From contig CALUZM010000006.1 of NCBI GenBank assembly GCA_944325245.1, forward strand, positions 1 to 64,000: 64,000 nucleotides of DNA, read 5' to 3'. Shown here in pieces: positions 31,785 through 54,323 of the stretch. The notes under the pieces were generated by a model that saw only the letters and a list, made by a program, of their open reading frames with translations, searched no databases and was not told where the DNA came from. Origin of the DNA: an uncultured Massilimicrobiota sp. (GTDB lineage: Bacteria > Bacillota_I > Bacilli_A > Erysipelotrichales > Coprobacillaceae). Both the position numbers and the translations under genes were made by a program. Each line of letters starts with the position of its first letter. Within the stretch, counting starts at the first letter, position 1.

Positions 31785-32408
31785 ATGACGACACATGAAA
31801 TATTAAAAATTTTACAGGAAGAAATTCATACAGTTATTGTAGCAACTGTTGATAGTCAAGGGATTCCTTATACTTGTGCTATTGATTTAATGCTTTTAGA
31901 AGATGAAACGCTTTATTTTTTAACGGCTAGAGGGAAATCATTTTATCAAAGATTGATGAGTCATCCCAACATTGCTTTAACAGGATTAAAAGGTGAGGAT
32001 ACGATGTCTTCTATAGCGATTTCATTAAATGGTCGCGTTCGAAATATAGGTCATGAAAAATTGAAAGATATTTTTGAAAAGAATGCTTATATGAATCAAA
32101 TTTATCCTCATTTAGAGTCAAGAGATGCTTTGGAAGTCTTTCAAATATATGAATGTCAAGGTGAGTATTTTGATTTAAGCCAAAAACCTATTTTCAGACA
32201 AAGTTTTTCAGTCGGCAAAGAAATATCAAGGCAAGGATATCAAGTGACAGATCAATGTATAGGATGTCAAAAGTGTTATCAGGTATGTCCACAAAGATGT
32301 ATAGATATCAGTGTCAAACCAGTTATGATTCAACAAAATCATTGTTTGCATTGTGGTAAATGCTATGAAGTGTGTCCAGTGAAAGCTATTGAGAAGGTAG
32401 GTGTTTGA
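31785..32408 (+). CDS. PNPOx-like flavin protein with two 4Fe-4S motifs
   Basis: 207 residues. The first 140 form a split-barrel pyridoxamine 5'-phosphate oxidase-like domain (TVIVATVDSQGIPYTCAID) that usually binds FMN or F420. The last 50 hold two ferredoxin clusters (CIGCQKCYQVCPQRC and CLHCGKCYEVCP). The combination suggests a flavin reductase fed by internal iron-sulfur clusters. It overlaps the region before the sirtuin gene and shares the dyad-flanked promoter, so it belongs to the ADP-ribosylation module. Its role there is unknown. Confidence 0.88.
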   Translation: MTTHEILKILQEEIHTVIVATVDSQGIPYTCAIDLMLLEDETLYFLTARGKSFYQRLMSHPNIALTGLKGEDTMSSIAISLNGRVRNIGHEKLKDIFEKNAYMNQIYPHLESRDALEVFQIYECQGEYFDLSQKPIFRQSFSVGKEISRQGYQVTDQCIGCQKCYQVCPQRCIDISVKPVMIQQNHCLHCGKCYEVCPVKAIEKVGV

Positions 32409-32409
32409 T

Positions 32410-33285
32410 ATGTTTGTTGATGATTATACTATATCCATAAAGAAGTTGACTAAGGCTATTCAGACATGTGAAGCTATTGTTGTTGGAGCAGGGTCAGGAC
32501 TATCTACTGCTGCAGGTCTAACATATTCTGGTGAAAGATTTGAAAAATATTTTGCGGATTTTATTGAACGCAATCATTTACAAGATATGTATTCAGCTGG
32601 TTTTTATCCTTATCAAACTTTAGAAGAATATTGGGCATATTGGTCTCGACATATTTATTATAATCGTTATGTAGATGCCCCATTCAACACTTATCAATTG
32701 CTTTGGCAACTTGTCAAAGATAAAGATTATTTTGTGATTACAACGAATGTGGATCATCAATTTCAAAAGAATGGTTTTGATAAAAAAAGACTGTTTTACA
32801 CTCAAGGAGATTATGGTTTATGGCAATGCTCTAAGGCTTGTCACCAACAAACTTATGATAATCAAGATATTGTCATTGAAATGCTTCATCAACAAGAAGA
32901 TATGAAAATTCCTTCTTCTTTAATTCCTTATTGTCCAAAATGTGGAGCCCCCATGACTATGAATTTAAGATGTGATCAGACATTTGTGCAAGATATGGGA
33001 TGGCATCAGGCCTTATCACGTTATGAAGAGTTTCTAAAGAAACATCAACATTCCAAAGTCCTTTATCTGGAATTAGGGGTTGGAGGTAATACACCAGTTA
33101 TTATTAAGTATCCTTTTTGGAATTATGTACATCAAAATAAAAAAGCAATCTATGCCAATATGAATTTAAATGATGTTTATTGTCCTAAGAATATTCAAAA
33201 ACAATCCATATTAATAGATAGTGGTATTCATGATACACTTATAAAATTATGGGAAGAAATGGGGAAAGAGAATGAATCAGATTGA
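32410..33285 (+). CDS. class M sirtuin (SirTM-like)
   Basis: 291 residues. NAD-binding motifs are VVGAGSGLSTAAGLTYSGE and TTNVDHQFQKNGF. Where classical sirtuins have the catalytic His of the HG motif, this has Gln in YTQGDYG, the known hallmark of SirTM proteins, which act as protein ADP-ribosyltransferases and not deacylases. Two zinc-binding cysteines are in YCPKCGAP; earlier cysteines (CSKACHQ) would complete the site. It overlaps the macrodomain gene by 14 bases. The start at 32410 follows AAGGTAGG. Confidence 0.9.
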   Translation: MFVDDYTISIKKLTKAIQTCEAIVVGAGSGLSTAAGLTYSGERFEKYFADFIERNHLQDMYSAGFYPYQTLEEYWAYWSRHIYYNRYVDAPFNTYQLLWQLVKDKDYFVITTNVDHQFQKNGFDKKRLFYTQGDYGLWQCSKACHQQTYDNQDIVIEMLHQQEDMKIPSSLIPYCPKCGAPMTMNLRCDQTFVQDMGWHQALSRYEEFLKKHQHSKVLYLELGVGGNTPVIIKYPFWNYVHQNKKAIYANMNLNDVYCPKNIQKQSILIDSGIHDTLIKLWEEMGKENESD

Positions 33286-34051
33286 AAGATTAACTTTTCT
33301 AGTTCAATATTTATTAGATGAAAAAAATATGAAAATTGATATTCCAGAAGAACATCAAGATTTATTTGATTTGTATCGTGCTTTGGTCAATGTGAGAGAA
33401 GCTGGAGAAGTTTCACAGGAGTTTTTAAGTATTCAAGATGAAATGTTGCAGGAAGAAAATATGAAGAAAGGAATTGTCTCTTTTGAAGATAAGATTGATC
33501 AAATGATTATCTGGCGTGGAGATATCACACGATTAAAGGTTGACGCTATTGTCAATGCTGCCAATAATCAGATGGAAGGATGCTTTGTGCCAGGTCATCA
33601 ATGTATCGATAATGCCATTCATACTTATGCAGGTGTACAGTTAAGAAATGATTGTCATCACTTGATGCAGCAACAAGGTTACTTGGAACCTACAGGTCAA
33701 GCTAAAATCACAAAGGCTTATAATTTACCTTCTCAATATATTTTACATACAGTAGGGCCAATAATAAGAGGAGTTGTCACTCATAAGGATGAAGTTTTAC
33801 TGGCATCTTGCTATGAAAGCTGTCTGAGACTCGCTGAACAATATCAAGTTAAATCCATAGCGTTTTGTTGTATTTCAACAGGAGTCTTTCATTTCCCTCA
33901 TAATCGAGCAGCTCAGATTGCTGTTGCAACAGTAGAGAATTATCTTAAACATTCTACAATTGAAAAAGTGATTTTCAATGTTTTTAAAGAAGAAGATGAA
34001 AAAATATATAGACAATTACTAGATAAAAAAGATTCACCCGTTATCATATGA
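33272..34051 (+). CDS. zinc-type macrodomain ADP-ribosylhydrolase
   Basis: 259 residues: a helical N-terminal part (1-75) and a macrodomain with WRGDITRLKVDAIVNAAN at 81-98. Directly after comes Cys104, His109 and Cys111 (GCFVPGHQC), the zinc ligands of the macrodomains encoded beside SirTM. A GVFHFP phosphate loop follows. It would remove ADP-ribose placed by the overlapping sirtuin. The gene start overlaps the sirtuin end, and a terminator follows, so this is the last operon gene. Confidence 0.92.
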   Translation: MNQIERLTFLVQYLLDEKNMKIDIPEEHQDLFDLYRALVNVREAGEVSQEFLSIQDEMLQEENMKKGIVSFEDKIDQMIIWRGDITRLKVDAIVNAANNQMEGCFVPGHQCIDNAIHTYAGVQLRNDCHHLMQQQGYLEPTGQAKITKAYNLPSQYILHTVGPIIRGVVTHKDEVLLASCYESCLRLAEQYQVKSIAFCCISTGVFHFPHNRAAQIAVATVENYLKHSTIEKVIFNVFKEEDEKIYRQLLDKKDSPVII

Positions 34052-40876: not shown

Positions 40877-41752
40877 ATGTATATTGAAACGCAAACACAA
40901 TATTCACAATTTGAAAGCGACGAATTGACTGATTTATTAGGAAAGATGACGTTTCAGATTAATAATTTTGGTTTATGGCAGAGTCAAAAAGATACCAAAG
41001 CCAGTTACATTTCCAATGATATAGAAATTGTATATTATAAAGAAGGCGGTTCTACTACCATTGTGGGTGATAAGAAATATATCTGTCCTCCAGGAAGTTT
41101 TTTAATTATTGAGCCATTTCAATTAAATACATCTATTAATGAGGGTTATGATCGTTATGCTTATTACTACTTTCATTTTGATATTGAACCAGCTTACTTA
41201 AAACATGCCTTTCTTTCCTTGTTAATGAAATATGGTCATGTTATAGAGGCATATGAAATTGATTATACAGAAATGTTTGATCGTTTATATTTGGAAGCTC
41301 AAAGAAAAGAGCTGGGATATTCAAGTATTATTACTTCAGCATTAATCCGATTACTTGTTCAAATGACAAGAGCTCAATTAAAAAGAGGTCAAGATCATTC
41401 TATAGAAATTGTTGAATCTCCTTATATCCAGCTGGTGAATGAAGCTATCCAATACATTCAAGATCATTTATGTGAATCTATTCGTGTCACAGAAATAGCG
41501 CAGACTTTAGGTGTTTCTACAAGTGTCTTATATAAGGCATTTATGAGTGTTTTGGACATACCACCTGTAAAATATATTCATCAGCAGAAAATTCAATATG
41601 CACAAAAACGTCTGATGTTGGATCGAAGTGTCACAGAGATTGCACAGGAACTCGGTTACTCATCTGCCTATCATTTATCAAAAAAAAATAAAAAAATTGT
41701 AGGTGTGAGTCCTAAAGATTATAAAAAAGCTATCAGAACACCTAAAATGTAA
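40877..41752 (+). CDS. AraC family transcriptional regulator
   Basis: 291 residues. The first 150 form a cupin-like ligand pocket (IEIVYYKEGGSTTIVGDKKY, then PPGSFLIIEPFQ). The last 100 carry two helix-turn-helix motifs (IRVTEIAQTLGVSTSVLYKAF and VTEIAQELGYSSAYHLSK, partly quoted) ending in GVSPKDYKKA. It lies downstream of GH32 in the same direction and likely activates that gene. A terminator follows. Confidence 0.9.
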   Translation: MYIETQTQYSQFESDELTDLLGKMTFQINNFGLWQSQKDTKASYISNDIEIVYYKEGGSTTIVGDKKYICPPGSFLIIEPFQLNTSINEGYDRYAYYYFHFDIEPAYLKHAFLSLLMKYGHVIEAYEIDYTEMFDRLYLEAQRKELGYSSIITSALIRLLVQMTRAQLKRGQDHSIEIVESPYIQLVNEAIQYIQDHLCESIRVTEIAQTLGVSTSVLYKAFMSVLDIPPVKYIHQQKIQYAQKRLMLDRSVTEIAQELGYSSAYHLSKKNKKIVGVSPKDYKKAIRTPKM

Positions 41753-41801: not shown

Positions 41802-41833
41802 AAAAAACATATACGAAAAAGTATATGTTTTTT
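41802..41833 (+). terminator. intrinsic terminator
   Basis: A perfect 13-bp stem aaaaaacatatac / gtatatgtttttt with loop gaaaaa. A second hairpin at about 41766-41793 lies just before it. Confidence 0.85.
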
Positions 41834-41911
41834 ATTGAAAAGAGTATGTTTTATATATTTGTAAGTGTTATCATAAGGGCGAGATGAAATGATGAAGAAA
41901 AGGAGAAAAGT

Positions 41912-43849
41912 ATGAAATTATTAGAACCCATTCAAGTAGGAAAAATCACATTAAAAAACAGAATTATGTTTCCACCAATGACAACTGGATATGAAGAAAG
42001 AGATGGATCTATTGGTGAACAAAGTTTTCATTTTTATAAGAGATTAGCTCAGGGAGGAGTCGCTTATATTGTTTTAGGAGATGTTGCTCCAGTGAATACA
42101 GTTTCACCAACACCAAAATTATTCCATGATGGACAAATAGAAGCATATAAAAAATTGGCTGATGCTTTACATGAATATGATTGTAAGTTAGGTATCCAAT
42201 TATTCCATCCTGAATATGATGTGGATGCTTTAGCTGAGTTATTTAAAAAAGGAGATATGCAGGCAGCGCGTGCTAAATTACATCATGATATGTTGCATTA
42301 TATTGATGAAGTCACTGAAGAACAATTAAATAATATTTTAGAGAAAATGGGTGCCTGTGTGAAACGTGCTTATCAGGCTGGTGTTGATGTTATCGAAGTA
42401 CATGGAGATCGTTTGGTTGGATCTTTATGTTCAACAATTTTAAATCATCGTCAGGATCAATATGGAGGGGCATTTGAAAACAGAATTCAATTTGCTTTAA
42501 ATGTTGTAAAATTTATTAAAGAAAGTGCACCTGATATTTGTATTGATTATAAATTGCCTGTGATTACTGTGAACCCAGATGGAACATTACGTGGTAAAGG
42601 TGGTTTGTTAATTGAAGAAGCTGTTGAGTTTGCAAAAAGATTAGAGCAGGCTGGTGTAGATATGATTCATGTAGGGCAGGCGAATCATACCGGAAATATG
42701 AATGATACGATTCCAGCTATGGGAACAACACCTTATTGTTTTATGTCTCATTATACAAAACAAATTAAAGAAGCTGTGTCAATTCCTGTTTCTTCAGTAG
42801 GACGTATTTTAACACCTGAAAATGGTGAATCATTAATTGAAAATGGTGTCTGTGATATTATTGGTTTAGGACGTTCTTTATTAACTGATCCGGATTATGT
42901 GAAGAAATTAGAAACAGGTGACATCTCACGTATTCGTCATTGTATGATGTGTAACAAAGGGTGTACAGATGCTATTCAAAACAGACAATTCTTAAGCTGT
43001 GTCTTAAATGCAGAAAATGGTTATGAATATGTCAGAGTCATCACACCAGCTCAAAACAAGAAAAAAGTTGTTGTTGTAGGTGGTGGACCAGCAGGTATGG
43101 AAGCAGCACGTGTGGCGAAGGAAAAAGGACATCATGTTGTTTTATTTGAAAAAGAAACAACATTAGGTGGTCAGTTAAATATTGCTGCCATGCCACCAAG
43201 AAAATATGAAATGAATAGAGGACTTCATTATTTAACAAATGAAATGAAAGAATTAGATATTGATTTAAGATTAGGACATGAAGTTTGTGCACAATGTATT
43301 TTAGAAGAAAATCCAGATGTTGTGATTGTGGCAGTAGGAGCTTCTAATATCATGCCTGCTATTGATGGCGCTAATTTACCACATGTTTATGATGCATGGA
43401 AAGTTTTAAATCATGAACAATTACCAAGTGGTAAAGTCGTTGTCATTGGTGGAGGTCTAGTAGGTGCAGAGACAGCAGAAATGCTAGCACAAATGGGAGC
43501 AGATGTGTCAATTGTAGAAATGATGGATACGATTGCCAAAGAAGAATCTACAACTGTTAGACCAACAATGATGGCAGATTTTGAAAAACATGGTGTACAA
43601 CAATATGTGAAAACAAAAGTTACTGCTATTACAGGAAATCATGTTGAAGCAGAGAACGAAGATGGTCAAGTTTCTATTCCTTGTGATTATGTTGTTATGG
43701 CTGTAGGAGCAAAACCTAATACTTTTGATACATCATTATTAGAAGAAAAAGGTATTGAAGTGCATGTTGTAGGAGATTGCCATGATAAAGCAGCAGATAT
43801 CAATCATGCGATTGAAGAAGGATATCTAGCAGCTAATGGAATTGAATAG
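41912..43849 (+). CDS. NADH:flavin/enoate reductase, Old Yellow Enzyme type, divergent active site
   Basis: 645 residues. Residues 1-330 are the FMN barrel, followed by a 4Fe-4S motif (CMMCNKGC then CVLN) and an FAD/NAD domain (VVVVGGGPAGMEAAR, VVVIGGGLVGAETA). This is the 2,4-dienoyl-CoA reductase/BaiCD/BaiH architecture, which passes electrons from NADH via FAD and iron-sulfur to FMN and reduces an activated C=C bond. In the substrate loop the usual HGAHGYL is replaced by HGDRLVG, so the second His and Tyr are missing. Tandem with a canonical paralogue. Confidence 0.9.
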   Translation: MKLLEPIQVGKITLKNRIMFPPMTTGYEERDGSIGEQSFHFYKRLAQGGVAYIVLGDVAPVNTVSPTPKLFHDGQIEAYKKLADALHEYDCKLGIQLFHPEYDVDALAELFKKGDMQAARAKLHHDMLHYIDEVTEEQLNNILEKMGACVKRAYQAGVDVIEVHGDRLVGSLCSTILNHRQDQYGGAFENRIQFALNVVKFIKESAPDICIDYKLPVITVNPDGTLRGKGGLLIEEAVEFAKRLEQAGVDMIHVGQANHTGNMNDTIPAMGTTPYCFMSHYTKQIKEAVSIPVSSVGRILTPENGESLIENGVCDIIGLGRSLLTDPDYVKKLETGDISRIRHCMMCNKGCTDAIQNRQFLSCVLNAENGYEYVRVITPAQNKKKVVVVGGGPAGMEAARVAKEKGHHVVLFEKETTLGGQLNIAAMPPRKYEMNRGLHYLTNEMKELDIDLRLGHEVCAQCILEENPDVVIVAVGASNIMPAIDGANLPHVYDAWKVLNHEQLPSGKVVVIGGGLVGAETAEMLAQMGADVSIVEMMDTIAKEESTTVRPTMMADFEKHGVQQYVKTKVTAITGNHVEAENEDGQVSIPCDYVVMAVGAKPNTFDTSLLEEKGIEVHVVGDCHDKAADINHAIEEGYLAANGIE

Positions 43850-43861
43850 GAGATTGATAAT

Positions 43862-45805
43862 ATGAAATACCCACATTTATTCGAACCTATTCAGATAGGA
43901 ACACAAACAGTCAAAAATCGTATTTTTATGCCACCACTTTCAACCAATTTAGGAAATAAAGGTTATGTGACAGATGAATTGGTTGAGCATTATAAGGCAA
44001 GAGCCAGAGGTGGTGTAGGGCTTTTCGTAACAGAAGTTGTGACAGTGGAACCAACGTATGTTTATTTACCTGGGGATATGTCTATCTATGATGATTCATT
44101 TATTGAAGGCTGGAAGAAACTCGTTGATGGTGTTCATGAATATGGAGCCAAAATATTACCACAGTTATTTCATCCTGCTTACATGGCTTTTCCTATTCCA
44201 GGAACACCTCAGCTTATTGCACCATCACATGTTGGGCCTTACTATGCAAAATCAGCACCACGCCCTGTCACAAAAGAAGAGCTAAAAGTTATTATTCAAC
44301 AGTTTGCTGATGCAGCCAAAAGAGTTCAGCAGGCTGGTGGAGATGGTGTTGAAATTCATGCTGCACATGCCCATGGATTATTAGGAGGATTTTTATCACC
44401 ACAGTATAATAAGCGTACAGATGAATATGGTGGAAATCTAGATGCACGTCTAAAATTAACTTTGGAAGTTGTTGAAGCTGTGAGACAAGCCTGTGGAAAA
44501 GATTTTATCATTGATGTGCGTATCTCAGGTGATGAATATAGTGATGGCGGTCTCAATCTTAATGATATGATTTATGTGTCTAAACAATTAGAAGCTCAAG
44601 GGGTAGATATGTTACATGTTTCTGGTGGAACAACAATTGCAAGAGGAAGTTCAATTCCAGCACCAGGAACACCAATGGGATCACATAGTGCTTTATCTGC
44701 TGAAATCAAAAAATATGTGTCTATTCCAGTGACCACAGTGGGACGTATTACAGAACCATGGCTTGCTGAAGAGCTTATTGCCAATCATAAAGCAGATGCC
44801 TGTATGATTGGTCGTGCTAATCTTTGTGATCCTGAGTTTGCTATGAAAGCACAAGCAGGAAAACCTGAAGATATTCGTCCATGTATTGGTTGTTTGCGTT
44901 GTCTTAACGGTATTATGTTTGGCAAACCAATAGCTTGTACAATGAATCCATCATTTGCTTTGGAAAATGAGGAAACATTAACTGAGGCAGAACAAAAGAA
45001 GAAAGTTCTTGTTATTGGTTCAGGACCAGCTGGAATGGAAGCAGCCTATATCGCAAAAAAACGCGGACATGAAGTTGTCTTATGTGAAAAAGAAGCAGAA
45101 ATGGGTGGAGCATTAAGAATTGCCAGTGTTCCTATTGGAAAACAGGATTTATGTCAGGTCATCAAATGGATGCAACATCGTTTACAACAGGCTGATGTCG
45201 ATATTCGTTTGCAAACAACAATCACTTTAGATATGTTAAAACAGGAATATCAGGATTATGAAGTCATCGCTGCCACTGGTGCGAAACCAATCATTCCTCA
45301 TCATTTGACAGCATTTCAACAATGGATGAGTGCGGATGATATTCTATCAGGAAAAGCATTCCCAGGTAGAAAGATTGTGATTATTGGAGGAGGTTCAGTT
45401 GGTTGTGAATTGGCAGATTATTTAGCACCTTTAGTTAATGATCGTTTCCCTAGAAATCGTGATATTACTGTGATTGAAATGGATCATGAGATTATGCTTC
45501 AGGAATCTGGACCAGGACGCTCTTTGCTTGTTCAAAGATTGATGAAAAAAGGTGTTCATATTCAAGTGAATGCCAAAGTGACAAAAGTCACTGAAAATCA
45601 GATAACTTATATCCAAAATGGTATTGAACACACTATTGATGATGCCGATACGCTTGTTTTCGCTTGTGGTTATCAACCAGATACAGCATTGGAAGATATG
45701 TTCAAAGCAGCACAAGTCAGCTATCATATGATTGGTGATGCACACCAAGTTGGTAATATTAAAGATGCCATCCAAGAAGGATATAACATAACAAAAGCTA
45801 TTTAA
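43862..45805 (+). CDS. NADH:flavin/enoate reductase, Old Yellow Enzyme type
   Basis: 647 residues, same three-part design as the upstream gene: FMN barrel, cluster motif CIGCLRCLN, and FAD/NAD domain (VLVIGSGPAGMEAAY, IVIIGGGSVGCELA). The active-site loop keeps histidines (VEIHAAHAHGLLGGFLSP) and the NKRTDEYGG motif. It likely reduces an alpha,beta-unsaturated acid, ester, CoA-thioester or steroid; substrate unknown. It starts 12 bases after the first gene with GGAG upstream. The pair may work together. Confidence 0.92.
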   Translation: MKYPHLFEPIQIGTQTVKNRIFMPPLSTNLGNKGYVTDELVEHYKARARGGVGLFVTEVVTVEPTYVYLPGDMSIYDDSFIEGWKKLVDGVHEYGAKILPQLFHPAYMAFPIPGTPQLIAPSHVGPYYAKSAPRPVTKEELKVIIQQFADAAKRVQQAGGDGVEIHAAHAHGLLGGFLSPQYNKRTDEYGGNLDARLKLTLEVVEAVRQACGKDFIIDVRISGDEYSDGGLNLNDMIYVSKQLEAQGVDMLHVSGGTTIARGSSIPAPGTPMGSHSALSAEIKKYVSIPVTTVGRITEPWLAEELIANHKADACMIGRANLCDPEFAMKAQAGKPEDIRPCIGCLRCLNGIMFGKPIACTMNPSFALENEETLTEAEQKKKVLVIGSGPAGMEAAYIAKKRGHEVVLCEKEAEMGGALRIASVPIGKQDLCQVIKWMQHRLQQADVDIRLQTTITLDMLKQEYQDYEVIAATGAKPIIPHHLTAFQQWMSADDILSGKAFPGRKIVIIGGGSVGCELADYLAPLVNDRFPRNRDITVIEMDHEIMLQESGPGRSLLVQRLMKKGVHIQVNAKVTKVTENQITYIQNGIEHTIDDADTLVFACGYQPDTALEDMFKAAQVSYHMIGDAHQVGNIKDAIQEGYNITKAI

Positions 45806-45809
45806 ATCG

Positions 45810-45836
45810 AGGGCAATTCTACGGAATTGCTCTTTT
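45810..45836 (+). terminator. intrinsic terminator after reductase pair
   Basis: A 10-bp stem agggcaattc / gaattgctct with loop TACG is followed by TTTT. Confidence 0.8.
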
Positions 45837-45927: not shown

Positions 45928-46515
45928 GTGGATCGTATTGATTTGACAGATGTGAAGGATAAATGGAAAAGAAAAAATCAAATTCTTTTTTCAAGAGAAA
46001 GTGCCTGTTTACAGGATTTATTAGTAAATATCAGAAAACAATCCCATCAGGCTCTGGTTTTATGGGCATTGAAATTTGCTGAAGAAATTGCTTTGACATT
46101 ACAAAATAAATACCCTGACGATCATCGCCCTACGACTGCGATTGAAAAAACACGTCAATGGGCAAGAGGGGATATCAAAATGCCCGAAGCTAAAAAGGCG
46201 ATACTTGCAGCACATGCAATGGCTAAAGACATCACAGATGTATCAGATCAGGCTTTATGTCATGCTATTGGGCAGGCGTGTGGAACGGTACATGTAGAAA
46301 CACATGCGATAGGACTGGTTTTCTATGAATTAACAGCCACAGTCAGACTATATGGGATTGATGATTGTGAACCAATGTTGATCAAAAGAATCAATGAATA
46401 TCAGTCGTATCTTCCTGTATGTGCACAACATATTCATCAGTATCAATGGGCTAAATTTATAAGTGATGATCCTCATGCAAATAAAGAATATTTATTGTGG
46501 TTAAAACGTAAATAA
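45928..46515 (+). CDS. putative immunity protein, Imm-5-like
   Basis: 195 residues, all-helical. The pattern LALKFAE...KYPDDHRPTTAIEKTRQWARG then EAKKAILAAHAMAKD and VHVETHAIG is the signature of the Imm-5-like proteins often annotated as immunity proteins of polymorphic toxin systems. No toxin gene lies beside it in the window, so it may be an orphan, or the family may do something else. It starts with GTG after AGGCAGGGAG. Not a membrane protein. Confidence 0.75.
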   Translation: MDRIDLTDVKDKWKRKNQILFSRESACLQDLLVNIRKQSHQALVLWALKFAEEIALTLQNKYPDDHRPTTAIEKTRQWARGDIKMPEAKKAILAAHAMAKDITDVSDQALCHAIGQACGTVHVETHAIGLVFYELTATVRLYGIDDCEPMLIKRINEYQSYLPVCAQHIHQYQWAKFISDDPHANKEYLLWLKRK

Positions 46516-47574: not shown

Positions 47575-48795
47575 ATGGAAAAGAAACAATATAAAAAAGT
47601 CGTTTTAGCTTATTCAGGAGGATTAGATACATCAATTATTATTGCTTGGTTAAAAGAAAATTATGGTTGTGAAGTCATTGCTGTGGCTGGAGATGTTGGT
47701 CAAGGAGATGAACTTGACGGATTAGAAGAAAAAGCTTTAGCTACAGGAGCTTCTAAATATTATTGTGCTGATTGTAAGGAAGAATTTGTCAATGATTTTA
47801 TCTTCCCGGCTATCAAAGCTAATGCTGTTTATGAAGGAAAATATCTTTTAGGAACTTCACTTGCAAGACCTATCATTGCTAAAAAATTAGTGGAAATTGC
47901 CAAAAAAGAAGGTGCTGATGCCATTTGTCATGGTTGTACAGGTAAAGGAAATGACCAAGTCAGATTTGAACTCACAATCAAAGCTTTTGCGCCAGAATTA
48001 GATATCATTGCACCATGGAGAGTATGGGAATTAAAGAGTAGAGAAGATGAAATTGAATATGCTGAAGCTAGACATATTCCATTAAAAATCAATAAGGAAA
48101 CAAATTACTCTAAAGATAAAAACTTATGGCATTTATCACATGAAGGATTAGATCTTGAAAATCCAGCTAATGAACCAATGTATGATAAGATTCTTGAATT
48201 AGGAGTGACACCAGAAAAAGCACCTGACAAACCAACATATATTACTTTAACTTTTGAAAAAGGAATTCCAGTTGCTTTAAATGGTGAGAAAATGAATGGT
48301 ATTGATTTAATCACTGCTTTAAATAAGATTGGTGGAGAAAATGGTATTGGTATCATTGATATGGTTGAAAACAGATTAGTTGGTATGAAATCTAGAGGTG
48401 TCTATGAAACTCCAGGTGGAACAATTCTTTATAAGGCACATGCAGATTTGGAAGAAATCACAATTGATAAAGAAACACAACATTTTAAATATCAGGTTTC
48501 TCAAAAATTAGCTGATATTTTATATAATGGTCAATGGTATACACCATTAACAAAAGCATTGCTTGCTTTTATTGATGAAACACAAAAGACTGTCAATGGA
48601 GAAGTGAAATTAAAATTATATAAAGGAAATATCATTGGAGCAGGTATGACTTCACCAGATACTTTATATAGTGAACAGACAGCTTCATTTGGAGAAGATG
48701 AAGATTATAATCAAATGGATTCTCAAGGATTTATTAATTTATATGGTTTACCTATTAAAGTGAAAGCTTTATTAGATCAACAAAGAAAGAAATAG
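47575..48795 (+). CDS. argG: argininosuccinate synthase
   Basis: 406 residues. The PP-loop ATP motif is [13 protein letters not shown] at the start; [13 protein letters not shown] contacts citrulline/aspartate. It condenses citrulline and aspartate with ATP to argininosuccinate. It is first in the T-box-controlled arg operon, with AAAAGGAGAA before the ATG and argH starting 11 bases after its stop. Full length, no anomalies. Confidence 0.97.
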
Positions 48796-48806
48796 GAGTT
48801 GAAAAT

Positions 48807-50192
48807 ATGGCGTTATGGGCAGGGAGATTTAAAAAAGAAATCAATGCAAATGTGAATGCTTTTAATTCATCAATATCGTTTGATGCAAGAATGTATAAAC
48901 ATGATATTATGGGGAGTCAGGCACATGCCAAAATGTTAGCCAAACAAGGTATTATTTCTCAGCAGAATTTAACTGAAATTTTAAAGGGATTGGATGAAAT
49001 CTTATGTGAATTGGAAAATGGAGATTTGCTATTTGATCCTAATGCTGAAGATATTCATATGTTTATTGAAGCAGAATTGACAAAGCGATATCCCGAAAGT
49101 GGGAAAAAACTTCATACTGCAAGATCACGTAATGATCAGGTGGCTTTAGATTTAAGGTTATACACACGTGATGAAATCAAAGATATTCAGGATATGTTAA
49201 TGGAATTGATGCATGTGCTTTTAGATCAATCCAAACAGCATACGCATACGATTATGTGTGGCTATACGCATTTGCAGCGTGCTCAACCCATAACATTTGC
49301 TCACCATTTAATGGCTTATGTTGAAATGTTTTATCGTGATTATACAAGATTGGATGATTGTATGAAACGACTCAATGTTTCACCATTAGGTAGTGGAGCC
49401 TTAGCGACGACAACATATCCTATCGATCGTCATTTTGTAGCACAGGAACTTCATATGGACGATATTATGTATAACTCATTAGATGGTGTCAGTGATCGTG
49501 ATTATACGATTGAACTAGCTAATGATCTTGCTATGATTATGATGCATTTATCACGTTTTAGTGAAGAGATTATTCTATGGTGTTCATGGGAATTTAAATA
49601 TATTGAACTGGATGATGCGTATGCGACAGGATCAAGCATCATGCCACAAAAGAAAAATCCAGATATTGCGGAACTGGTCAGAGGAAAAAGTGCTAGAGTC
49701 ATCAATGATGTGTCAACATTGTTGACAATGATGAAGGGTTTACCACTTGCTTATAATAAAGATATGCAGGAAGATAAGGAAACTTTATTTGATGCGATTG
49801 ATCAGGTGAAATTATGTTTACCAGTTTTTAGCGATATGATCAAAACCATGAAAGTTCATGTTGAACGTATGAAAGAATGTGCTGCTAAGGGATTTATTAA
49901 TGCAACGGATTGTGCAGATTATCTTGTTAAAAAAGGAAGAGCTTTTAGAGATGCCTATAAAACAACAGGACAACTGGTTGCCTATTGTATTGATCATGAT
50001 GAAGTATTAGAAACATTGTCACTAGATGTCTATCAATCATTTGATGAAGTTTTTAGTGAAGATATTTATCAGGCGATTTCATTATTGACATGTGTTGAAA
50101 ATCGTGTGGTAGATGGGGGACCAGCACCACAGACATGCCAAAAAGCAATCGCAAGAATGGAAAAACAATTGGAGGCGTTGAAACATGATTAA
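48807..50192 (+). CDS. argH: argininosuccinate lyase
   Basis: 461 residues. The fumarase/aspartase-family signature is GSSIMPQKKNPD, and the HTARSRNDQVALD motif near residue 110 belongs to ASL. It splits argininosuccinate into arginine and fumarate. TAGGAG lies before the ATG; the stop overlaps the argC start by 8 bases, so translation is coupled. Confidence 0.97.
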   Translation: MALWAGRFKKEINANVNAFNSSISFDARMYKHDIMGSQAHAKMLAKQGIISQQNLTEILKGLDEILCELENGDLLFDPNAEDIHMFIEAELTKRYPESGKKLHTARSRNDQVALDLRLYTRDEIKDIQDMLMELMHVLLDQSKQHTHTIMCGYTHLQRAQPITFAHHLMAYVEMFYRDYTRLDDCMKRLNVSPLGSGALATTTYPIDRHFVAQELHMDDIMYNSLDGVSDRDYTIELANDLAMIMMHLSRFSEEIILWCSWEFKYIELDDAYATGSSIMPQKKNPDIAELVRGKSARVINDVSTLLTMMKGLPLAYNKDMQEDKETLFDAIDQVKLCLPVFSDMIKTMKVHVERMKECAAKGFINATDCADYLVKKGRAFRDAYKTTGQLVAYCIDHDEVLETLSLDVYQSFDEVFSEDIYQAISLLTCVENRVVDGGPAPQTCQKAIARMEKQLEALKHD

Positions 50193-51219
50193 AGTTGGAA
50201 TCATTGGAGCGAGTGGTTATGCAGGAGCAGAATTATATCGCTTATTGCTGAATCATCCACATGTTGAAATTGTTGCTATCAGTTCTCAAAGTTATGAAGG
50301 AAAGATGATTTCTGATTTATATCCATCATTTTATGGAGCCTTTGATATGATACTCACAAATGATCAGGAAGTGATTGAAAAAGCAGATATTGTTTTTGCA
50401 TCACTGCCACATGGACTGAGTGAAAAGTATGCCAAACAATGTGATGAACAAGGAAAGAAATTCATCGATTTAGGAGCTGATTTCCGTTTAGATCAAGAAA
50501 AAGATTATCAACAATGGTATCAACATGATTACCAATATCCACAATTACATCAAAAACAGGTTTATGGTTTAAGTGAAGTCAATCGTGAAAAAATTAAACA
50601 AGCGTCAATCATTGGTAATCCAGGATGTTATCCAACATCTATTACTTTGGGGTTATACCCATTATTAAAAAATCATATGCATAAAGATGAAAAGATTATC
50701 ATTGATTCTAAATCTGGAACAACAGGTGCCGGGAAGACACTCACAGAAGATACACATTTCCCTAAATGCAATGAGTCATTTCATCCATACAAAATAGCAA
50801 GTCATCGTCATACACCAGAAATTGAACAGGAATTATCAAAAATGGCTAATCAAGCTATTCATGTGATGTTTACACCACATCTGTTACCAGTGAATCGTGG
50901 TATTGTTTCAACGATGTATGTTTCATTAAAAGATGATGTTGATTTTGATGATGTTTATCATATCTATCAAAAAACATATCAGGATGAATATTTTGTAAGG
51001 GTTTTACCCAAAGGGAAAGTTGCTGATTTAAAGTTTGTTCAGTATTCTAATTTCTGTGATATATCTTTGCATTATGATCAAAGATATCATCAATTGATTG
51101 TTGTGTCTACAATAGATAATATGGTGAAAGGAGCAGCTGGACAAGCTATTCAAAATATGAATTTGATGTATGGTTTCGATGAAAAAGAAGGATTAATGAT
51201 GGTACCTGCATCATTTTAG
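50185..51219 (+). CDS. argC: N-acetyl-gamma-glutamyl-phosphate reductase
   Basis: 344 residues. The NADP-binding motif is VGIIGASGYAGAELYRLL, and the catalytic Cys is in GNPGCYPTS, with HRHTPEI further along. It reduces N-acetylglutamyl-phosphate to the semialdehyde. Overlaps argH, GGAGG upstream. Confidence 0.97.
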   Translation: MIKVGIIGASGYAGAELYRLLLNHPHVEIVAISSQSYEGKMISDLYPSFYGAFDMILTNDQEVIEKADIVFASLPHGLSEKYAKQCDEQGKKFIDLGADFRLDQEKDYQQWYQHDYQYPQLHQKQVYGLSEVNREKIKQASIIGNPGCYPTSITLGLYPLLKNHMHKDEKIIIDSKSGTTGAGKTLTEDTHFPKCNESFHPYKIASHRHTPEIEQELSKMANQAIHVMFTPHLLPVNRGIVSTMYVSLKDDVDFDDVYHIYQKTYQDEYFVRVLPKGKVADLKFVQYSNFCDISLHYDQRYHQLIVVSTIDNMVKGAAGQAIQNMNLMYGFDEKEGLMMVPASF

Positions 51220-51232
51220 TGGGGTGAATGGA

Positions 51233-52447
51233 TTGAAAAATATTGAAGGTGGTGTTTGCGCTCCAATTGGTTTTCAGGCAGCAGGCATACACTGTGGAAT
51301 TAGAAAAAATAAAAGTAAAAAAGATTTAGCATTAATTGTGAGTGATGTGATGTGTCATTGTGCGAGTACATATACTCAAAATAAGGTGAAAGGGGCACCT
51401 ATTTATGTCACACAGCAGCACTTACAAAATAATGAAGCCCAGGCTATTATCTGTAATAGTGGGAATGCCAATACATGCAATCCTGATGGTGAAATGATAG
51501 CTAATCAGGTATGCGAATTGTGTGCATCAGAATTAAAGATAGATGTCAATGATATTGTTGTGGCTTCAACTGGAGTCATTGGGCAACCTTTAAGTCTGAC
51601 ACCTTTTCAAAATCATATGTCAGATTTAGTTAAAGCTTTATCAACGAAGGGAAGTCAAGATGCCTGTGAAGGAATCATGACAACAGATACAGTCAAAAAA
51701 GAATATGCAGTTGAATTTGAACTTGATGGCAAGACTTGTCATATTGGAGCAATCGCCAAAGGAAGTGGCATGATTCATCCAAATATGGCCACAATGCTGG
51801 CTTTTGTGACAAGTGATGTTGCTATTTCTAAAGACATGCTAAATGAGGTAATTCATGAAGTTGTTGATGATACATTTAATATGGTTAGTGTTGATGGAGA
51901 TACATCAACCAATGATATGTTGACATTAATGTGTAATGGTTTAGCCAAAAATCCAGAAATTACACAAAAAGATGAACATTATCAAATCTTTAAAGAAGCT
52001 TTGTTGTCTATCTGTACATGCTTATCAAGAGGCATTGCGAACGATGGTGAAGGAGCGACAAAACTTTTAACTTGTCAAGTCCATCATGCCAAGAAAAAAC
52101 AAGATGCCAAAGTTGTCGCAAAGTCTATTATTACAAGTTCATTGTTTAAAGCAGCCATGTTTGGTGAAGATGCGAATTGGGGACGTATCTTATGCGCCAT
52201 TGGTTATAGTCCAGCTGAATTTGATATCAATAAAATTAAAGTTGAGCTGGCGAGTCAAGAGGGAACTATCTGTGTTTGTCAAAATGGACGTGGCTATCCT
52301 TTTGATGAGGATAAAGCGTCTCAAATTTTAAGTGAAGATGAAATTGAAATCATTGTTGATTTACAGGATGGAGATTTTTCTGCAGTCGCATGGGGATGCG
52401 ATTTAACATATGATTATGTTAAAATCAATGGTGATTATCGCACATAA
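51233..52447 (+). CDS. argJ: bifunctional glutamate N-acetyltransferase
   Basis: 404 residues. The autoprocessing site Ala-Thr in NMATMLAFVTSD marks the alpha/beta cleavage where Thr becomes the nucleophile; GAIAKGSGMIHP precedes it. It makes N-acetylglutamate and recycles acetyl from N-acetylornithine to glutamate. I start at the TTG at 51233, which gives the conserved MK-I-GGV opening with GGGGTG 6 bases upstream; the GTG at 51224 is the alternative. Confidence 0.95.
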   Translation: MKNIEGGVCAPIGFQAAGIHCGIRKNKSKKDLALIVSDVMCHCASTYTQNKVKGAPIYVTQQHLQNNEAQAIICNSGNANTCNPDGEMIANQVCELCASELKIDVNDIVVASTGVIGQPLSLTPFQNHMSDLVKALSTKGSQDACEGIMTTDTVKKEYAVEFELDGKTCHIGAIAKGSGMIHPNMATMLAFVTSDVAISKDMLNEVIHEVVDDTFNMVSVDGDTSTNDMLTLMCNGLAKNPEITQKDEHYQIFKEALLSICTCLSRGIANDGEGATKLLTCQVHHAKKKQDAKVVAKSIITSSLFKAAMFGEDANWGRILCAIGYSPAEFDINKIKVELASQEGTICVCQNGRGYPFDEDKASQILSEDEIEIIVDLQDGDFSAVAWGCDLTYDYVKINGDYRT

Positions 52448-52459
52448 AGGGGACTATTT

Positions 52460-53320
52460 ATGAATCAGAATGCAATTGTAAAAGCTGAGATTTTATCACA
52501 GGCTTTACCATATATTCAAAAATATCATGATAAAATTGTTGTCATTAAATATGGTGGCAATGCCATGATTAATGAAGAACTCAAGATGAATGTGATTCAA
52601 GATGTTGTTTTATTATCAGAAATAGGAGTAAAAGTCATTTTAGTTCATGGTGGGGGACCAGCTATTAATCAGACTTTAAAAAAGATGAATATCGAATCAA
52701 AATTTATTCATGGTTTAAGATATACAGATGATGAAACAATTGATGTTGTCCAAATGGTTTTGGCAGGAAAAACAAATAAAGATCTTGTCAAACTGATTAT
52801 GCAAAAGGGTGGCAATGCAGTTGGTATCAGTGGTATTGATAATCAGCTGATTGTTGCCAAGAAACATGAATCTGAAGATGATTTAGGATATGTTGGAGAT
52901 ATAGTAAAGATCAACGATCATATCATCATGGATTTATTAGATAAAGGATATATTCCAGTTGTTTCAAGTGTGGGAACTGATGAAGAAGGACATACGTATA
53001 ATATTAATGCTGATACAGCAGCAGCAGAAATTGCAGCTCAGGTTAAAGCGGAAAATATGATTCTGGTCAGTGATATACCAGGACTTTTAATGGATAAAGA
53101 TGATGAATCAACATTATTGCCTTTGGTTCACGTTTATGAAGTCAAAGGTTTGACAGATAAAGGTATTATTAGTGGTGGTATGATTCCAAAAGTGGAATGT
53201 TGCGTGCGTGCTATTCGTGAAAATGTTAAAAAAGCAGTCATCATTGATGGAAGAATTCCACATTCTATTTTGATAGAGATGTTATCTAAAGATGGTATTG
53301 GAACAATGTTTACAAGATAG
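52460..53320 (+). CDS. argB: acetylglutamate kinase
   Basis: 286 residues. [10 protein letters not shown] is the ATP-side lysine loop and [11 protein letters not shown] binds phosphate/N-acetylglutamate; [10 protein letters not shown] is the conserved C-lobe motif. It phosphorylates N-acetylglutamate, the regulated step of arginine synthesis. Starts 12 bases after argJ. Confidence 0.97.
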
Positions 53321-53330
53321 GAGGTCAGCT

Positions 53331-54323
53331 ATGGTTAATTTAAAGAATAGAAGTTTTTTAACATTAAAAGATTATTCTAAGGAAGAAATTCGTTATTTAT
53401 TGGATTTAGCTCATCAGTTAAAGAAAGAAAAGAAACAGGGAAGAATTGGCACAGCTTTAAAAGGAAAAAATATCGTTTTATTGTTTGAAAAAACATCAAC
53501 ACGTACACGTTGTGCATTTGAAGTGGCAGCTTTAGATGAAGGTGGACATGTCACATTTTTAAGCAATTCTCAAATGGGAAAGAAAGAATCTTTAGAAGAT
53601 ACCGCAAAAGTTCTAGGAAGAATGTATGATGGTATTGAATTTAGAGGTTTTGAGCAAAAGACTGTTGAAGATTTAGCGAAATTCTCAGGAGTACCTGTAT
53701 GGAATGGATTGACAGATGTTGATCATCCGACTCAGACATTGGCTGATTTTATGACAATTGAAGAACATTTAAAGAAACCATTAAATGAAGTGAAGTTTGT
53801 TTTTACAGGAGATATTCGTAATAATGTTTGCTATGGATTAATGTATGGAGCAGCCAAGATGGGAATGCATTTTGTCTGTTTGGGTCCAAAGACTTTACAA
53901 ATAGATCCTGAAGTTCTTAACTATTGTCAGCAGGAAGCACAAAAATCAGGTGGAAAATTTGAAGTTTTAGATAATGTTGATGAAGCAGTTAAAGATGCTG
54001 ATGTGATTTATACAGACATTTGGGTGAGTATGGGAGAAGATGAATCTCTATACAAACCTAGAGTTGAAATGTTATCACCATATAAAGTTACAACTGAAAT
54101 GATGAAAAAGACAGGAAAAGATTCTACACTCTTCATGCATTGTCTTCCTTCATTCCATGATTTTGAAACCGAAGTTGCGAAAGCGAAACATCAACAAGGA
54201 ATAGATATTAGAGAAGTGGAAGATGAAGTGTTTAGATCTTCACAATCTGTTGTATTTGATGAAGCAGAAAATAGAATGCATACCATTAAAGCGGTCATGG
54301 TTGCTACAATTGGAAATTTATAA
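53331..54323 (+). CDS. argF: ornithine carbamoyltransferase
   Basis: 330 residues. Carbamoyl-phosphate contacts are in [12 protein letters not shown] and HPTQTLADF; the ornithine loop is [10 protein letters not shown]. It makes citrulline. TAGGAGG sits 7 bases ahead of the ATG. It ends the operon; argD is missing between argB and argF, where many Bacillota carry it. No clear terminator follows. Confidence 0.97.

Follow-up and report, generated by a model that had tools for sequence, protein, structure and literature searches.

Bilirubin reduction by gut bacteria has been assigned to the bilirubin reductase BilR, for which an HGDR motif was published as signature (Hall et al., 2024; PMC10769871). 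Activity of R. gnavus BilR was clearly lower with the exchanges D166A/R167A (PMC10769871), and expression of bilR on its own suffices for activity in E. coli (PMC10769871, PMC13252198). A second enzyme, BilV, was recently described in a single preprint (Jiang et al., June 2026; PMC13252198) as an OYE-type reductase that is encoded adjacent to bilR and carries AHAH where BilR has HGDR, with a score of >1000 bits in the authors' HMM as criterion; most, but not all, of the published BilV proteins are encoded near bilR. Its function was derived from co-expression with bilR: the F. intestinalis bilR–bilV operon gave rise to urobilinogen in E. coli, whereas bilR alone yielded divinyl products only, and the products of the operon included mono-vinyl urobilins, diethyl urobilins and mesobilirubin (PMC13252198). 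The later claim that BilR leaves the vinyl groups unreduced is in conflict with the observation that BilRS alone gave urobilin, with all four bonds reduced (Hall et al., 2024; PMC10769871).

The stretch of DNA analyzed here, called the window in the following, comprises 64,000 nucleotides from an uncultured Massilimicrobiota sp. An earlier note had placed two OYE-type reductases in tandem at 41912–45805, and two ORFs were found exactly there, separated by 12 nt and each preceded by an AGGAG-type Shine-Dalgarno sequence. Together with their surroundings, the features of the locus are as follows:

40877–41752, plus strand: gene of an AraC-family regulator, 291 aa; HTH PF12833/PF00165 above cut-off
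41807–41874, plus strand: conserved putative promoter/operator block of 68 bp, with 44 invariant columns in 12 genomes
41912–43849, plus strand: bilR, 645 aa, predicted bilirubin reductase of the long form without a ~28-residue insert; HGDR at residues 164–167 (42401–42412)
43862–45805, plus strand: bilV, 647 aa, predicted bilirubin vinyl reductase by motif, clade and co-occurrence; HAAHAHG at residues 166–172 (44357–44377)
45809–45834, plus strand: intrinsic-terminator-like hairpin directly 3′ of bilV

The hairpin is the only one between 39300 and 46700, and since 2.9 would be expected in shuffled sequence, it is its place that counts and not its number. With a probability of about 92%, this Massilimicrobiota locus represents a bilR–bilV operon that codes for two separate enzymes, predicted to act on one pathway leading to urobilinogen, and that would be activated by binding of the AraC-family protein. 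Directly 3′ of the operon lies a gene for an Imm5-like putative immunity protein (45928–46515; PF21805). The genes argG, argH, argC, and argJ are found 3′ of bilR both here (47575–54323) and in Neglectibacter timonensis (L013:11576–17183), while arginine biosynthesis genes are absent downstream of bilR in the other Massilimicrobiota loci seen. In another part of the window (31785–34051), genes for a PNPOx/ferredoxin-type protein, a SIR2-resembling protein (recognized by eye, without a Pfam match) and a macrodomain protein stand in a row, which may represent a sirtuin-macrodomain ADP-ribosylation set.

The protein encoded first in the pair, protein 1, matches NF045599, the model curated by NCBI for long BilR, over its full length with 1073.2 bits (cut-off 750) and NF045592 with 538.5 bits (cut-off 425). 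Its loop reads H164-G-D-R-L-V-G, so that the HGDR residues carry the same numbers, 164–167, as in R. gnavus BilR; that HGDRLVG takes the place of the usual loop had been recognized correctly beforehand. The 66 family members that were aligned include 25 BilR homologues, of which 24 retain HGDR and one has HGGR instead. The bearer of HGGR (L022:7980–10022), from a Roseburia-type genome, is the most divergent of the BilR-like proteins (46% identity). The other OYEs aligned have the classical HxxHxY loop, and in comparison with them BilR has Arg167 in place of the second His, is devoid of the Tyr, and has a loop shortened by two to three residues. Additionally, Lys214 occupies the position of an Arg which in OYEs contacts the flavin; this Lys is present in all 25 BilR proteins, whereas the 41 other members sampled all have Arg. 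The absence of FMN from protein 1, named by the earlier note as a point against its own reading, finds no support: Gln96, Arg298, and Arg321 of the FMN site as well as all four cluster cysteines (C344/347/351/363; CX2CX3CX11C) are kept, and there is thus no sign of a loss of FMN or cluster. From family score, motif, and clade, protein 1 is BilR and is predicted to be a bilirubin reductase. An insert of ~28 residues after residue 112, which marks another BilR clade, is missing from it, and we infer from this that it belongs to the 'basal' subtype.

For protein 2, the loop is H166-A-A-H-A-H-G, in which the AHAH motif aligns with HGDR of BilR. AHAH is present in all 20 BilV proteins of the alignment, and in all 20 the Tyr of OYEs is replaced by His (His171 here). 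The earlier statement that the second protein keeps its histidines is right for both His and has to be complemented by this replaced Tyr. The cluster cysteines are C341/344/347/359 (CX2CX2CX11C), with the CX2CX2C spacing found in all 20 BilV. Given how consistently the HGDR and AHAH loops are kept within their respective groups, they are not the result of chance. Since BilV has no curated family model, membership of protein 2 was judged by the AHAH motif, its position in the BilV clade, and its co-occurrence with bilR, the latter gene ending 12 nt upstream; on these grounds protein 2 is BilV, a predicted vinyl reductase. As had been stated before, both proteins contain FMN, cluster, and FAD parts, namely PF00724 (FMN/TIM barrel), the 4Fe-4S cysteine set, and a Pyr_redox_2 FAD/NAD domain, with the domains above cut-off. 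AlphaFold models of both proteins (mean pLDDT of 90 each) match the structure of 2-naphthoyl-CoA reductase, 6QKG. A comparison with PHROGs yielded nothing informative.

Upstream of bilR, the conserved block consists of an inverted half-site ACATATAC (41807–41814), two direct half-sites TATGTTTT (41824–41831 and 41845–41852) that are 21 bp apart and of which the second overlaps the −35 position, and an extended −10 element TGTTATCAT (41866–41874; consensus across genomes TGYTATCAT). AraC-type activator sites are arranged in this way. The exact 21-bp spacing of the TATGTTTT repeats is found in 12 of 12 genomes. Alternatively, the block might just terminate the AraC gene or reflect shared ancestry, without being an operator: T's follow its inverted repeat, a structure that could stop transcription of the AraC gene, and the 12 genomes are related to each other. 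However, conservation extends past the hairpin over the 21-bp repeats and the extended −10, the flanks contain no invariant column, and mean pairwise identity drops from 85% within the block to 41% and 39% on its two sides, which makes this alternative rather unlikely. An RNA element was rejected as identity of the block, in which no Rfam match was obtained. The operator pattern occurs in 12 of 116 genomes, once in each, and never in reversed controls; it always stands in front of a bil operon (12/12), be it bilR–bilV, bilV-A–bilR, or bilR alone, and a search of the window's own genome with up to three mismatches returned no second site. Orthologues of the AraC protein (64–75% identity) are encoded 5′ of the bil operon in all 11 other operator-bearing genomes. 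Exceptions are an orthologue in G013 (53%), which lacks bilR, and one in G042 (72%), which is located at a contig end and for which no bilR was found. From the conserved linkage of regulator gene and operator, the AraC-family protein likely is an activator of the bil operon, with putative binding to the half-sites and a putative inducer. A literature search for bilR in connection with AraC, or for control of bilirubin reduction, gave nothing relevant, and the AraC–operator module ahead of the bil operon appears to be undescribed so far, the enzymes themselves being already known.

When it comes to the function of BilV, the proteins fall into two types, BilV-G and BilV-A, that are only about 54% identical, so that their functions may differ, and the published evidence is based on co-expression. 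The BilV of the window could accordingly be imagined to catalyze another late step, such as the conversion of urobilinogen to stercobilinogen, instead of vinyl reduction. This is very improbable, since the authors of the BilV study set the stercobilinogen step aside, R. gnavus with both genes forms urobilinogen but no stercobilinogen, and the mono-vinyl urobilins, diethyl urobilins, and mesobilirubin among the operon products speak for vinyl reduction (PMC13252198).

In a set of 118 relatives, bilR was found in 27, with 26 copies above the model cut-off and one frameshifted copy in G004, and bilV, counted at ≥52% identity and including two fragments, in 25, all of which also have bilR. The two genes adjoin in 24 of these 25 genomes and are about 430 kb apart in G019; bilR without bilV occurs in G009 and G022 (Longibaculum muris). 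The frameshift splitting bilR of G004 (L120:7994–9927) leaves bilV intact; as neighboring genes are split as well, assembly errors are likely and a natural loss was not accepted. Directly 5′ of bilV, G094 (L124:7202–8275) and G019 (L121:6695–7705) encode a different, second AraC-family regulator. The earlier note had considered the pair a possible heteromeric reductase. An obligate heteromer would fit the 12-nt distance between the genes, the terminator-like hairpin behind the second one, and the restriction of BilV to BilR-bearing genomes. It is nevertheless highly unlikely, because BilR is active alone in the published E. coli experiments (PMC10769871, PMC13252198) and two relatives do without bilV; the split arrangement in G019 and the differing bilV partners of close bilR relatives also speak against it.

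The order bilR–bilV is found in the window, its nearest kin, and G110, and bilV–bilR in the other genomes. In G076 and G094, BilR is 58% but BilV 78% identical to the proteins of the window, while the opposite applies to Stoquefichus (G025), with 82% for BilR but 54% for BilV. A tree in which the BilV proteins paired with insert-free BilR were forced to group together was rejected (AU p = 0.0004, for a group picked post hoc). Since the sequence histories of BilR and BilV disagree and the constrained tree is rejected, bilV has probably been paired with bilR more than once, and on either side of it, which appears to be new. In a wider proposal, the AraC protein would be a dedicated sensor of bilirubin or another bile pigment that switches on bilR–bilV via the operator, with bilV recruited repeatedly to either side of an AraC–operator–bilR core; this is tentative and has, in our estimation, slightly less than an even chance of being correct.

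A phylogeny as suggested by the earlier note was calculated from the 66 homologues with SH-aLRT support, characterized 2-enoate reductases lying outside the sample, and BaiCD-like, BaiH-like, BilR, and BilV proteins formed separate clades in it. Support was 100 for the BilR clade of 25 HGDR-type proteins, 99 for BilV-G, 100 for BilV-A, and 99 for all BilV, next to which lies a protein of 43% identity carrying HACHRHG. With weak support (81), BilV is further joined by a BaiH-like/delta6-reductase-like clade that is marked by CAHAYM and probably corresponds to the delta6-steroid reductases of a previous study (PMC12238238). The proposed BaiCD/BaiH neighborhood thus holds for the broad family and, weakly, for BilV, but not for BilR, which is a clade apart. 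As BilR is separate from BilV, with the two proteins of the window only 34% identical and placed in deep clades, a recent tandem duplication was ruled out as origin of the pair. Tandems of a BaiCD-like OYE and a CAHAYM OYE with the same architecture as bilR–bilV occur at L129:8822–12748, L130:7960–11931, and L134:8458–12314 and are probably steroid delta4/delta6 reductase pairs. Despite these tandems, the identical three-domain architecture, and the weak affinity of BilV to the CAHAYM clade, the view of the pair as bile-acid or steroid-hormone reductases (BaiCD/BaiH or delta4-5beta-reductase/delta6-reductase) has a very low probability, as the BaiCD model NF041087 gives 474.8 bits for protein 1 and 486.3 bits for protein 2 (cut-off 825), BaiCD-like proteins form a clade of their own (100) with an FHxxH[NGS]Y loop that excludes both proteins, and no other bai-like genes were recognized among the ORFs near the pair. 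A cinnamate reductase was ruled out along with these readings, for both proteins lack the Tyr donor of the HxxHGYL-type loop of 2-enoate/cinnamate reductases. Of the idea of a pair with a new substrate, the three-domain OYE pair and a substrate outside the usual enoates remain, whereas bile acids, steroids, and cinnamate drop out by family score and motif.

Returning to BilR and BilV, transcription would probably start from the extended −10 at 41866–41874, activated by the AraC protein encoded upstream and bound to the two half-sites spaced by 21 bp. In BilR, hydride is expected to pass from NAD(P)H via FAD and the 4Fe-4S cluster to FMN, from where both methine bridges of bilirubin (C5, C15) would be reduced, with Asp166 and Arg167 replacing the histidine and tyrosine of OYEs as substrate binders and as putative proton donor. 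BilV, with a His instead of the OYE tyrosine, would use the same electron path for the reduction of the two vinyl groups (C3, C18), and both together would yield urobilinogen as separate enzymes of one pathway, with no obligate heteromer involved. We infer this activity from homologues, in which the reactions themselves and the requirement for D166/R167 have been demonstrated.

By these assignments, Massilimicrobiota would join the bacteria predicted to reduce bilirubin completely. The two-enzyme model can be tested cleanly at this locus, because close relatives carry bilR together with either of the two bilV types or without any: Massilimicrobiota timonensis has bilR and bilV-G, Stoquefichus massiliensis bilR and bilV-A, and Longibaculum muris only bilR. 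Should bile pigments indeed be sensed by the AraC protein, it would reveal how gut bacteria control bilirubin reduction. With the enzyme system itself already described, it is the AraC–operator module that deserves to be pursued, together with the way in which bilR and bilV were paired repeatedly.

Compared with known systems, protein 1 resembles the long form of BilR (Hall et al., 2024; PMC10769871; NF045599) in its full-length match, HGDR, and three domains; in contrast to BilR of that study, bilR of the window does not adjoin bilQ (MarR) or bilS and has an AraC gene and operator instead, and it differs from another BilR clade by the absent insert near residue 112. The fold and cofactor domains of the 1PS9 system are common to both proteins (TM 0.86–0.92), at an identity of about 24–28% and without its Tyr donor (Y166 as given in PMC10769871). 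BaiCD/steroid 5beta-reductase and BaiH/delta6-3-ketosteroid reductase (PMC12238238) are likewise OYEs with FMN, 4Fe-4S, and FAD that occur as tandem pairs, yet loop motifs and clades differ and both proteins stay below the BaiCD cut-off. Protein 2 is most similar to BilV (PMC13252198), with which it shares the AHAH motif, the tandem with bilR, and an Erysipelotrichales host. For pairing with bilV, the preprint gives 17% for the basal and 66% for the insertion type of BilR (PMC13252198), and if the ~28-residue insert corresponds to the published 'insertion' type, the window, with its insert-free and thus presumably basal BilR, probably represents the less common BilR–BilV pairing.
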